37,950 nt of DNA. Source: a virus. The notes beneath the pieces were generated by a model. The model searched no databases and was not told where the DNA came from. It saw only the letters and a list, made by a program, of their open reading frames with translations. The position numbers and the translations under genes were made by a program. The stretch covers positions 1 through 37,950 of IMG/VR virus record IMGVR_UViG_3300006616_000045; one strand, 5' to 3'. Below, piece by piece: positions 10,357 to 17,593 of this stretch; the stretch's first letter is position 1; every line of letters begins with the position of its first letter.

Positions 10357-10394
10357 TTTAAAAAAGGTAAAAACTGCTGTCAGTCGTTACCTTT
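10357..10394 (-). terminator. Rho-independent terminator of the middle early unit
   Basis: Minus-strand hairpin: AAAGGTAA, 16-nt loop, TTACCTTT, followed by TTT and then an A run. The 8-bp stem is A/T-rich and overlaps the stop of the gene ending at 10393. It separates that unit from promoter copy C. Moderate strength is expected. Confidence 0.45.
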
Positions 10395-10653
10395 ACTTGC
10401 AGTGTGCTTTAAAAAACTGCCATTCGTCAAAGCTGTCTGACCAATTTTGAAGGTGCAGCTTTGGTGTTTTGCTGCATGGGTGGTTCCCAAGGCGGCGTTT
10501 TAAGCGTCTACCTGCGCGGTAAATTTGGTCATCCACTTTTTTGTTGTCGTTTAGATCGAAGGGCTTTGAATAAGAAATTGTCACTTCCTCATCAATTGTA
10601 CCAAATGTTAGCCAGTGATCGCCGCGTAATTTTTCAATCAATTGATTTGTCAT
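10393..10653 (-). CDS. Small early protein, unknown
   Basis: 86 residues, start ATG behind TAGGAAAAC. The sequence has a beta-like first half (DHWLTFGTIDEEVTISYSKP) and a strongly basic middle (RAGRRLKRRLGN), then HLQNWSDSFDEWQFFKAHCK. The basic patch could bind nucleic acid. No family is recognised. It ends the unit that begins at promoter copy B, next to a terminator. Confidence 0.55.
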   Translation of the reverse strand: MTNQLIEKLRGDHWLTFGTIDEEVTISYSKPFDLNDNKKVDDQIYRAGRRLKRRLGNHPCSKTPKLHLQNWSDSFDEWQFFKAHCK

Positions 10654-10662
10654 TTTGTTTTC

Positions 10663-10758
10663 CTACCAAGGGATTTCATCATCAGGGTGATCTGGTAGCC
10701 ACACAATATCATATTGGTGCATGGCTATCAGGTATTCACGAAGCGTGTTGCCCCACAT
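10663..10758 (-). CDS. 31-residue protein with an SSB-like acidic C-terminal tail
   Basis: The ATG overlaps the stop of the upstream gene by one base (TGATG), so translation can restart there. The product starts MWGNTLREYLIAMHQYDIVW and ends HPDDEIPW. The phage's own SSB (14723-15109) ends DDEIPF, the class of C-terminal tip through which SSB proteins recruit repair and replication partners. The match of five of six end residues is striking for such a small protein. A mimic that competes for host or phage SSB partners is a hypothesis. The final Trp in place of Phe is unusual. Confidence 0.55.
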   Translation of the reverse strand: MWGNTLREYLIAMHQYDIVWLPDHPDDEIPW

Positions 10759-11096
10759 CAGAGTGCGTCATCTAGTCTGGTCATCCAGATTGCAATGGCT
10801 TGTGTCAGATGCTTCATGTCAGCCACCCTAGCGGCGTCTGCAATGTCCCACTTAGTGGGGTTGGCGCTGCAATACCCTGTGGGTGTTGGTGCTTTATCAG
10901 CAATGGGTGTTGTGTCCCATTCGTGAGTATTGGGGCGGTTGCCTATGGCGTTTTCGTTGAGCCAATTAAGCAAGCCCTGTTTGTCAGTGGGTACATCACA
11001 GGCGCATCCGTCAACGTCACGCGCTGTTATTCCAAACTCGCGCTTGGCGTCAGCTTGAGTTCCCACCCATTTGCCGTTTTGTGTATAGAGTTTCAT
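10758..11096 (-). CDS. Early protein, unknown
   Basis: 112 residues, ATG behind GGGAGAACCTAA. The N-terminal domain (YTQNGKWVGTQADAKREFGI, then DGCACDVPTDKQGLLNWLNE) looks like a short beta-alpha module. The C-terminal third (DIADAARVADMKHLTQAIAI) is helical. The gene is preceded by a stable hairpin and followed by the SSB-tail mimic ORF, to which it is coupled. I do not recognise a family. Confidence 0.6.
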   Translation of the reverse strand: MKLYTQNGKWVGTQADAKREFGITARDVDGCACDVPTDKQGLLNWLNENAIGNRPNTHEWDTTPIADKAPTPTGYCSANPTKWDIADAARVADMKHLTQAIAIWMTRLDDAL

Positions 11097-11114: not shown

Positions 11115-11136
11115 GGGGGGATTTCTCCCCCCTTTT
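11115..11136 (+). terminator. Strong G/C hairpin between early genes; plus-oriented terminator or minus-strand RNA hairpin
   Basis: A perfect 7-bp stem. On the plus strand GGGGGGA, loop TTTC, TCCCCCC is followed by TTTTGTTT, a good terminator for plus-strand (antisense) transcription. On the minus strand the same hairpin has a GAAA loop (GNRA type) and sits between the stop at 11139 and the GGGAG of the next gene, so it may protect or separate messages. Both uses are possible. Confidence 0.55.
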
Positions 11137-11138
11137 GT

Positions 11139-11687
11139 TTAAAAATTGTAGTCGTGAAATTTGCGCGGCTTAGTCGAAAGGAAATGCCGTCCATTGGTCG
11201 AGTAGAAGTAACCATCTTTGCGCTGACGGGCGCGGATCACGGGGTACTCAGGGTTTGATTTGTAAGTCCAACGCTGATCGCCTTGGTTTGTGCAGTGGCC
11301 CGCAAAGCCGCCAGAAACAATCTCAGGCTTCCAGTTTTCGTCCCACTCTGCGTCCATTACACGGATTTCGATTGTCTTTGGTGAAACAACTTTCACGATT
11401 TCATACGGGTGAATGTCAGACCAACCACTATGATTTGCGTGGGTGTATTCGATAGCTTCGACGCCATATTCGTATTTGCTGTTGTACTCACCGCAGTGGC
11501 TAACAGGCAAATCTTCGATGAAATCTTTAGCGTCCTCTTGGCTGTCAAAGGTCGTGGTGACTGTTGACCCTGCAAGCAATCTGTCATTACGCAATGTTTC
11601 GACATAAAATTTATTGGTAGTGCGGCTGCGTGAACCATCGCGTGTGCTGATCGTTTCGATTACTGTGACTGCGTATTTGGTAAGCAT
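11139..11687 (-). CDS. Conserved phage/bacterial protein of unknown function
   Basis: 182 residues, ATG behind AAGGAGAACACAA, first gene downstream of promoter copy B. The central to C-terminal region (PYEIVKVVSPKTIEIRVMDA, then GGFAGHCTNQGDQRWTYKSN, ending RKFHDYNF) matches a family seen in many phage and bacterial genomes without a known role. It is rich in aromatic and charged residues and predicts as mostly beta. No membrane segment or obvious catalytic triad. An early, host-directed function is likely given its strong promoter and ribosome site. Confidence 0.75.
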   Translation of the reverse strand: MLTKYAVTVIETISTRDGSRSRTTNKFYVETLRNDRLLAGSTVTTTFDSQEDAKDFIEDLPVSHCGEYNSKYEYGVEAIEYTHANHSGWSDIHPYEIVKVVSPKTIEIRVMDAEWDENWKPEIVSGGFAGHCTNQGDQRWTYKSNPEYPVIRARQRKDGYFYSTNGRHFLSTKPRKFHDYNF

Positions 11688-11710
11688 TTGTGTTCTCCTT
11701 GTTTCTATAC

Positions 11711-11746
11711 ATTATATGTAAGCTATCCCTTACAGAATTGCAAGGG
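11711..11746 (-). promoter_or_regulatory. Early promoter box, copy B, with palindromic operator-like site
   Basis: On the minus strand: TTGCAA, 21 bp, TATAAT. The box contains CCCTTACA-N4-TGCAAGGG (11727-11746), a near-perfect palindrome also in copy A, and GTAAGC-TATC-CCTTAC. The short leader carries AAGGAGAACACAA. The 21-bp distance is longer than usual for sigma-70, which suggests help from a regulator bound at the palindrome. Confidence 0.6.
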
Positions 11747-11772
11747 GTAACTTACACTTTTTTTAATTATTT

Positions 11773-12192
11773 TTAAATTATTTGCAGTACGGGGCGGGAT
11801 ATTTTTTTACGGATACCCCAATATTGGCTTGCATCGACAAGGCCACGTTGATCCAGAATTTGCGATCCTTTCACAAGCTGAACGTGGCTTGTGGTTGTGA
11901 CCATATAGAGGTGGTTGGGGTTGGCGATATTTTTGACAAAGCTGTTTAGGGTAACTCCCTTGGTGTGCATGATGTCCAGAGCCTTAAAATCTATGTTTAG
12001 GTGTTCTAAGACTTTGACGCGATCATAGTGGTGTGTGCTTCCGCGCCATCTTTTCATTCTTTTGATATAGCGGCATTTGTCTCTGAAGATTTCCATTGTT
12101 TCGCGTAATGGTTTCTCCGCTACAACGGCTACCGCCTGAACCCCACAGTGGGGGCCGTGAAAGGCGTCTTGGGGAAGTTGAAGGTTAATCAT
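11773..12192 (-). CDS. Putative papain-like/C39-like cysteine peptidase
   Basis: 139 residues from the ATG at 12192, coupled to the upstream stop (TAATG). A longer reading lies inside the neighbour. Seen: GPHCGVQAVAVVAEKPLRET with a helix after Cys16, as in papain-fold enzymes, and later LYMVTTTSHVQLVKGSQILD, giving His103 and Asp114 (or Gln115) in the usual order Cys-His-Asp. The same Cys-G-V-x-A-V-A / H-V-x3-G pattern occurs in small phage proteins of unknown target. It could process a phage or host protein or act as a transamidase. The catalytic assignment is inferred from motif order alone. Confidence 0.5.
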   Translation of the reverse strand: MINLQLPQDAFHGPHCGVQAVAVVAEKPLRETMEIFRDKCRYIKRMKRWRGSTHHYDRVKVLEHLNIDFKALDIMHTKGVTLNSFVKNIANPNHLYMVTTTSHVQLVKGSQILDQRGLVDASQYWGIRKKISRPVLQII

Positions 12193-14722: not shown

Positions 14723-15109
14723 TTAAAATGGGATTTCGTCATCTAGGTCTGGCCTAGACTTTTGGTCAATATTCTGACCCTCTGCATAGCGGTTGTCGCC
14801 GCCATCTGATGCGGGCTTTGAACCCATAAGGGTGACATCATTTGCCCGTATTTGAAGGTATGTGCGACCCTCATGTTCGCGCACACCAAGTTCGCCAGTG
14901 ACACATATTTTTGTGCCTTTCTTTATGTATTGGCTTACAGCCTCACCTCTCTTTCCCCAGAATGTTACATCAAAATACATCGTGGTTTTCTTGTCCCCGT
15001 AGCCGCTGTTCACGGCTACTGCGAAGGAAGCAAATGGGGTTTTGTCCATACCCCCACCTTTAACTTCACAGTCACGGGTGACATTCCCTGCGATACTAAT
15101 GACTTTCAT
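14723..15109 (-). CDS. ssb: Single-stranded DNA-binding protein
   Basis: 128 residues with one OB fold: MKVISIAGNVTRDCEVKGGG, FASFAVAVNSGYGDKKTTMY, FDVTFWGKRGEAVSQYIKKG, VTGELGVREHEGRTYLQIRA. A short linker ends in the acidic tip DDEIPF, through which SSB proteins contact partner enzymes. It protects single strands and loads annealase and host replication factors. ATG overlaps the ERF stop (ATGA), so annealase and SSB are made together. No residue expected for the fold is obviously missing. Confidence 0.93.
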   Translation of the reverse strand: MKVISIAGNVTRDCEVKGGGMDKTPFASFAVAVNSGYGDKKTTMYFDVTFWGKRGEAVSQYIKKGTKICVTGELGVREHEGRTYLQIRANDVTLMGSKPASDGGDNRYAEGQNIDQKSRPDLDDEIPF

Positions 15110-16304: not shown

Positions 16305-17030
16305 ATGACAAACACGCCGTGGTTCAAATTTTATCCGTCAGACTTTCTGGCAGGTACAAGTGGCCTCACAGCCGCAGAAAGAGGCGTCTACATCACTGTT
16401 TTGGCTTTGATGTACGAATACGAAGGCGAAGTTAAACTGGATCATAGCCGCCTTGCAAGGCGCTGTGGCGTACCGTCTGGCAGCTTCAAAAAGATTTTGG
16501 CGGCACTATTAGACGAAGGTAAGCTGATCCAAACGGACACTGGCATATCTAATGAACGTGCCATGAAAGAGATTGCAGATCGCCAAAAACACATCTCCAC
16601 ATTGCGAAGTGGTGCAGCTAAAACCAACGCCATAAAAGCGGAAAAAAGGCAACAAAAACAACGGGCCTCTTTACGCCTAGCGTCTGCTGACCGTGACGCA
16701 TACCAGATACCAGATACAGATACTACAATAGATACTGACGTATCTATTGATGCTGAAGCATCTAAGGTGAGCAAAGAAATTAAGGCTCTCTGGGATAGAG
16801 GTGTGCCGTTTCTGGTGGAGTGTGGGACAGCGGAAAAAAGCGCAAGGTCATTGATTGGCAAGTGGATCAAGGCTCATGGCGGCAATCAAGTGTTTGAGGT
16901 TTTCAAGGCAGCAAAGGCGGCGGGGACGGGCGATCCAGTGAGTTATATTACGAAGGGGCTAAAATCAGGATCGACAAATGAAAATGTGGCTGATATGGTC
17001 GCTGTGGCAGCAAAGAAACTTAAAGCGTAG
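16305..17030 (+). CDS. DUF1376 replication initiation-type protein
   Basis: 241 residues. The N-terminal domain (WFKFYPSDFLAGTSGLTAAE, ERGVYITVLALMYEYEGEVK, LARRCGVPSGSFKKILAALL) is the winged-helix DUF1376 domain found in phage and plasmid initiators. The middle is Lys/Arg/Gln-rich and disordered. The C-terminal half (KALWDRGVPFLVECGTAEKS, KWIKAHGGNQVFEVFKAAKA) forms a second helical domain, common in such initiators. It likely binds an origin and recruits host replication proteins, since no phage polymerase or helicase is encoded here. An origin may lie in or near this gene but none was recognised. Confidence 0.75.
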   Translation: MTNTPWFKFYPSDFLAGTSGLTAAERGVYITVLALMYEYEGEVKLDHSRLARRCGVPSGSFKKILAALLDEGKLIQTDTGISNERAMKEIADRQKHISTLRSGAAKTNAIKAEKRQQKQRASLRLASADRDAYQIPDTDTTIDTDVSIDAEASKVSKEIKALWDRGVPFLVECGTAEKSARSLIGKWIKAHGGNQVFEVFKAAKAAGTGDPVSYITKGLKSGSTNENVADMVAVAAKKLKA

Positions 17031-17041
17031 GGAGAAACGCA

Positions 17042-17593
17042 ATGAGAACGGAATTTCTAACAAATCGAGTATCAAGCCTTTTGTCGCGGTTTTCGCCGCC
17101 AAGAGCAATTGCCAACAATGAGGAAGCAAAATCTGATGAGGTGCAGATCATCATGGAAGCAGTGAACAGATTTGCACCAAGTAGGGGCTATGAAGATTGG
17201 TGGCCTAAATTTGAGCGTGAGTTATTGGAAAACCACGAAACGCGATCTTGGCCGCTTCTAAGCGAATTGAAAAAGGCGGCAGGTAAGATTAGAGGGCCGC
17301 AGAAGCACTTCACAGACATGACGGGCGACAACGCGGAGTTTTGTCCGTACAAGGCAAACGCGGCAAGAATGAACAACGGGCAACCCGTTTCAGAGTTTTA
17401 TCTGTACGGGCGTGAGGCAGTCGAATTGAAGCGCAGGGGATTAGTTCAAGATGACATCTTTGAGCGTCACAAGCGCAGCTATTATTATCACCTTGAGAAA
17501 GTCTATGGGAAGGAACAGGCTGACCAGATGATTGCGGCCCGTGATCAGATGACCCAAGATGCTTTGCGGGTTATGAGAGAAAAAGGGCTTTGA
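17042..17593 (+). CDS. Replication-associated partner protein, unknown
   Basis: 183 residues. It follows the DUF1376 gene by 11 bp, with GGGAGAAACGC as ribosome site. The protein is helical and charged (SRGYEDWWPKFERELLENHE, WPLLSELKKAAGKIRGPQKH, RRGLVQDDIFERHKRSYYYH, VYGKEQADQMIAARDQMTQD). No Walker motif is seen, so it is not a classic helicase loader, yet its position matches that of helicase-recruiting partners in phages with DUF1376-type initiators. Function inferred from context only. Confidence 0.6.
   Translation: MRTEFLTNRVSSLLSRFSPPRAIANNEEAKSDEVQIIMEAVNRFAPSRGYEDWWPKFERELLENHETRSWPLLSELKKAAGKIRGPQKHFTDMTGDNAEFCPYKANAARMNNGQPVSEFYLYGREAVELKRRGLVQDDIFERHKRSYYYHLEKVYGKEQADQMIAARDQMTQDALRVMREKGL

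Follow-up and report, generated by a model that had tools for sequence, protein, structure and literature searches.

Introduction

Many enzymes of repair and replication are recruited in bacteria through the SSB tip, which serves as their hub; free SSB-tip peptides are under development as inhibitors. The pockets that receive the tip in E. coli read the terminal Phe with its carboxylate (at a basic lip), the Pro and the acidic residues, and binding is abolished or weakened by deletion of the terminal Phe or by a Pro-to-Ser change (PMC10164576). Synthetic SSB-Ct peptides and SSB-mimetic inhibitors dock, or have been modelled, in pockets of RadD, ExoI and RecO (PMC10143822, PMC10238739), but these peptides are laboratory reagents, whereas the subject of the present analysis is a natural gene, a micro-protein with an added conserved N-terminal part. 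The small phage proteins gp5.9 and Abc2 inhibit host DNA-break repair by targeting RecBCD itself (PMC9836394); host repair is also the target proposed for the micro-protein, but the abstract of that source mentions no SSB-tip motif for gp5.9 or Abc2. SSBs of the T7 gp2.5 and Enc34 ORF6 types have an acidic C-terminal tail like that of the micro-protein, but carry it on OB-fold proteins. A phage SSB-tip mimic was not found in the open-access literature, a scope outside which many subscription papers fall.

The micro-protein locus

The window, which is the whole 37,950-nucleotide stretch of viral DNA analysed, taken from an IMG/VR viral contig of 38,146 bases, encodes a 31-residue protein that an earlier note had described as a copy of the tip of the phage's own SSB, and the two ends concerned, DDEIPW and DDEIPF, are both read from the sequence (Table 1). 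Like the SSB-Ct of bacteria and phages, the micro-protein has a terminal aromatic residue with a free carboxylate, a preceding Pro and acidic residues, with a linker-like though very short stretch ahead of the tip; unlike SSBs, it has no OB fold, and members of its family comprise 31-36 residues in all. The coupling by TGATG to the upstream gene that had been described was also seen, as an overlap with the stop of a 112-aa ORF. A homologue of this ORF is present in contig L079, and others occur in L010, L012, L013, L018, L065, L066, L070 and L086, where the micro-protein is missing. The gene lies on the minus-strand replication/recombination side of the genome, with a RusA-like resolvase and an HNH/DUF968 nuclease encoded nearby, and back-translated DDEIPW occurs once in the window (0 expected from shuffles). 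Near the gene, the DNA of positions 11129-12177 is ~75% identical to that of roseophages CRP-901/902, a likeness that points to a probable Rhodobacterales host for the window phage. A protein search did not find this stretch in the terminase relatives, which suggests that phages infecting one group of hosts have exchanged genes.

Table 1. Coordinates of the micro-protein gene, its parts and neighbouring features in the window
Feature	Position	Strand	Description
Micro-protein gene	10663..10758 (stop TAG included)	-	ATG start, 31 codons, MWGNTLREYLIAMHQYDIVWLPDHPDDEIPW; C-terminal end DDEIPW
SSB-like tip codons, DDEIPW	10666..10683	-	All members: acidic-rich-x-P-[FW]
Conserved segment LREYLIAMHQYDIVWLP	10693..10743	-	Alignment and AlphaFold2: predicted helix at residues 6-15, then YDIVWxP
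TGATG stop/start overlap of upstream gene and micro-protein	10756..10760	-	One base common to start and stop
Upstream 112-aa ORF, function not assigned	10758..11096	-	Stop at 10758
Downstream 86-aa ORF, function not assigned	10393..10653	-	AGGA ribosome-binding-like site overlapping the micro-protein stop
Phage SSB	14723..15109	-	OB fold and tip DLDDEIPF; PF00436 E=7.8e-15

A conserved family under purifying selection

A tblastn search of 80 terminase-selected contigs returned full-length relatives in L060, L057 and L079, of the same length and with the tails DDEPPF and NDDPPF. Degenerate DNA scans were then aimed at the middle of the protein, followed by a final scan confined to the N-terminal part (LR-x-[FY]-h-x-x-M-x-x-Y-[DE]-[IVM]-[IVM]-W), in which the tail residues were left unspecified. 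The latter yielded 51 contigs, and a short ORF with an exact C-terminal acidic-x-Pro-Phe/Trp was present in 51 of 51. With L174, which has the variant LQDF, and the window itself, the scans and tblastn define a micro-protein family, bearing no existing name, in 53 viral contigs. Conservation of M13, YDIVW and P22 was partly built into the search patterns, while for L6-R7 and for the tail at least one search was free of any such constraint. The pattern matches in L186, L188, L191, L198, L201, L206, L220 and L227 were without family features and were dropped. The earlier note had named as grounds for refutation that relatives might have lost the tail or carry stop codons; these were looked for, and the conservation of both ORF and tail that was found instead favours the SSB-tip idea.

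The start codon is close to, or within, the 3' end of a preceding ORF with 45 or more codons in 49 of 52 members, and as the upstream genes differ between members, this overlap is a habit of the family. Such an arrangement might be expected of a leader or spacer ORF, translated mainly for coupling the expression of its neighbours and encoding a peptide of no importance, all the more as the stop overlaps the ribosome-binding-like site of the next gene. The pattern of substitution speaks otherwise, with many synonymous changes and purifying selection at the amino-acid level: the window and L175 differ by 8 synonymous changes and 1 non-synonymous change (pN/pS 0.03), and L172 and L173 give a pN/pS of 0.00. 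These values largely refute the leader explanation, the neighbours moreover differ by lineage, and its probability is now very slight indeed. Pooled over close pairs, pN/pS was 0.05 for the N-terminal part, 0.35 for the linker and 0.12 for the last six codons, which form the tail, so that the micro-protein is, as judged by codon changes, under strong purifying selection. Full-length homologues, this selection and a terminal motif that, in the 80 contigs, is confined to SSBs and the micro-protein together show that the 31-codon ORF is a real gene and not a chance reading frame.

Resemblance of the tail to an SSB tip

Over 22 distinct cores, Phe or Trp is last in 22/22 and Pro precedes it in 22/22; Glu or Asp occupies position -4 in 22/22 and position -5 in 21/22, and position -6 is acidic in 18/22. 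Ahead of the Pro, I, V or P may stand: most members end in xPPF or VPF, whereas the window and L175 end in IPW. The linker ahead of the tip consists of few, variable residues, very short and without predicted secondary structure. The positions that the family keeps are thus the known determinants of tip binding, whereas the linker varies. With a tip so short and a variable residue before the Pro, the protein might nevertheless be an unrelated one, small and with an acidic-Pro-aromatic end that serves another purpose. In the 80 contigs, picked by terminase only and blind to the tail, [DE][DE]xP[FW] ends 35 of 10,908 ORFs of at least 25 aa, as against 0.08 expected from internal frequency, and these are 32 SSBs (by BLAST match to the window SSB) and 3 copies of the micro-protein. 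On this specificity of the motif, chance likeness was rejected, and it is held to be most improbable.

The window's variant of the motif behaves similarly: in viral contigs DDEIPW is directly followed by a stop in 86 of 86, even though the pattern permitted TGG, which marks it, on these counts, as a C-terminal motif. The proteins ending in it fall into several groups, including typical SSBs (e.g. L007 and L110), PHROG SSB families and a gp2.5-like family, as well as some non-SSB proteins. In L072, which is related to the window phage, the SSB ends NDEIPW. Terminal Trp in place of Phe is therefore a natural variant of the SSB tip.

SSB-like ends were also observed on other phage proteins. Proteins of ~200 aa ending DDEIPW or EDEIPW are encoded in L091, L097, L140, L156 and L175, with no PHROG match for the one tested (L156); in L175 the 198-aa ORF of this type lies ~2.9-3.5 kb from the micro-protein, on the opposite strand of the same contig. 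Helicase-like proteins of 592 aa (L148/L125) and ~550 aa (L254, CRP-902 gp20) end in LDDEIPW and FEDIPF, respectively. Arthrobacter phage Pterodactyl gp34 (L230:1183-1539), a 118-aa protein with no assigned function, has the C-terminal end WTPTNEESEPPF, and a Cas4-family exonuclease is encoded a few genes downstream of it.

The N-terminal part

The peptide is not merely a tail: the view of it as an SSB-tip copy passed the sequence tests available, but the 22 N-terminal residues are conserved too. An AlphaFold2 model (mean pLDDT 80, pTM 0.32) contains one helix at residues 6-15, YDIVWxP and an extended tail, with no OB fold or strands in its 31 residues, and L6, Y/F9, L/I10, M13 and Y16 share one face of the predicted helix, making it amphipathic. 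The N-terminal part had no match in Pfam, PHROGs, NCBIfam or the PDB, a PDB profile search giving weak matches only (e.g. INCENP at E>0.5) and no credible relative; the protein was placed in the OB-fold SSB family PF00436 by none of Pfam, PHROG and NCBIfam, and Rfam also gave no match. As a bare tip would need no such part, it probably confers specificity or oligomerisation. It could also have a function of its own to which the tail is secondary, which counts against the tip reading.

Occurrence across phages

The micro-protein is carried by several phage lineages that have different replication genes and few other genes in common. The window-type lineage has its own SSB, the primase-helicase of cobavirus-like carriers is 69% identical to those of CRP-5 and ICBM2, the polymerase of HMO-2011-like carriers is 55-68% identical to those of CRP-2, CRP-207 and HMO-2011, and two further lineages have AAA and VWA-like neighbours. 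Some carriers are related to cultured Rhodobacteraceae phages. The micro-protein was absent from the stretches read of the cultured relatives CRP-2, CRP-4, CRP-5, CRP-6, CRP-207, CRP-902, ICBM2 and HMO-2011, and tblastn with six family members or consensus sequences found no relative in cultured phages; weak matches in cyanophages P-SSM7 and S-B68 and in Arthrobacter gp34 were inspected and are not family members. Among 385 sampled bacterial genomes of one alphaproteobacterial class (a set with no internal positive control) there was no member, and a pattern scan of bacterial genome contigs gave no member and six unrelated matches. In its distribution the gene acts like an accessory gene that passes from phage to phage, and a role directed at the host would fit this better than membership of any single phage replisome.

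The SSBs of the carriers bear on the proposal that the micro-protein supplies an acidic tail in trans to the OB fold of a host or phage SSB, acting like an intramolecular tail and tuning ssDNA binding. The tail of T7 gp2.5 is known to compete with ssDNA for the same surface (title cited in PMC5686142), and the window and L079 phages do encode an OB-fold SSB. A PF00436 SSB was, however, present in only 2 of the 28 records searched (many of them fragments), some others have other SSB types, and the strict C-terminal conservation of Pro and the aromatic residue would be left unexplained, so that this proposal is considered improbable. In L235, a micro-protein phage, a cobavirus-type 160-aa protein (16669-17151, minus strand; no PHROG match) ends ELEMEDRW, an acidic tail closed by Trp; it is likely the SSB of cobavirus-type phages, and its MEDRW end is unlike the tip of the micro-protein.

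Proposed mechanism

The micro-protein is proposed, with somewhat better than even confidence, to act as a free mimic of the SSB tip; it would dock in an SSB-tip pocket, probably that of a host protein, and block or redirect this protein. Residues 1-22, the amphipathic helix and YDIVWxP, would form a specificity or oligomerisation element, from which the short variable linker would present the SSB-Ct motif (acidic-acidic-x-Pro-Phe/Trp-COOH) to the hydrophobic pocket and basic lip where SSB-interacting proteins take SSB. The N-terminal part would strengthen binding either to one partner or to another molecule of the micro-protein, and the docked enzyme would be removed from SSB-coated DNA or held where the phage wants it. 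Because the gene is common to phages whose replication genes are unrelated, a host enzyme is a likelier partner than a phage one, candidates being RecG, RecQ, RecJ, RecO, PriA, ExoI or chi-type. Binding of the SSB tip is weak, at 3-4 uM for RecG (PMC10164576), so that a free peptide would need a high copy number or help from its N-terminal part, a point that counts against the proposal.

Alternatively, the micro-protein might be an adaptor, its N-terminal part binding a phage or host protein and its tip recruiting an SSB-interacting enzyme, without blocking. An N-terminal part conserved at least as well as the tail, with a helix predicted to be amphipathic, is consistent with this, as is the position of the gene shortly upstream of integrase-primase-polymerase or primase-helicase genes in the HMO-2011-like and cobavirus-like lineages. 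Neighbours and replication genes vary by lineage, however, with no evident phage partner common to all, and the adaptor is thought rather unlikely. Blocking of a host enzyme is preferred to recruitment; docking of the tip as such, which both readings entail, appears highly probable.

Implications

The phages sharing these proposed autonomous SSB tips are, in at least some cases, related to Rhodobacteraceae phages. It is conceivable, with slightly less than even confidence, that the mobile family provides a natural competitor, encoded by a gene common to unrelated phages, for a single SSB-interacting enzyme of the host, possibly acting in counter-defence. If phages do carry a natural gene for scarcely more than an SSB tip, the SSB hub would prove to be something that they attack or exploit directly, and the extra N-terminal segment could tell which partner matters in infection. 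The micro-protein would also offer a probe, itself genetically encoded, with which to follow SSB traffic.
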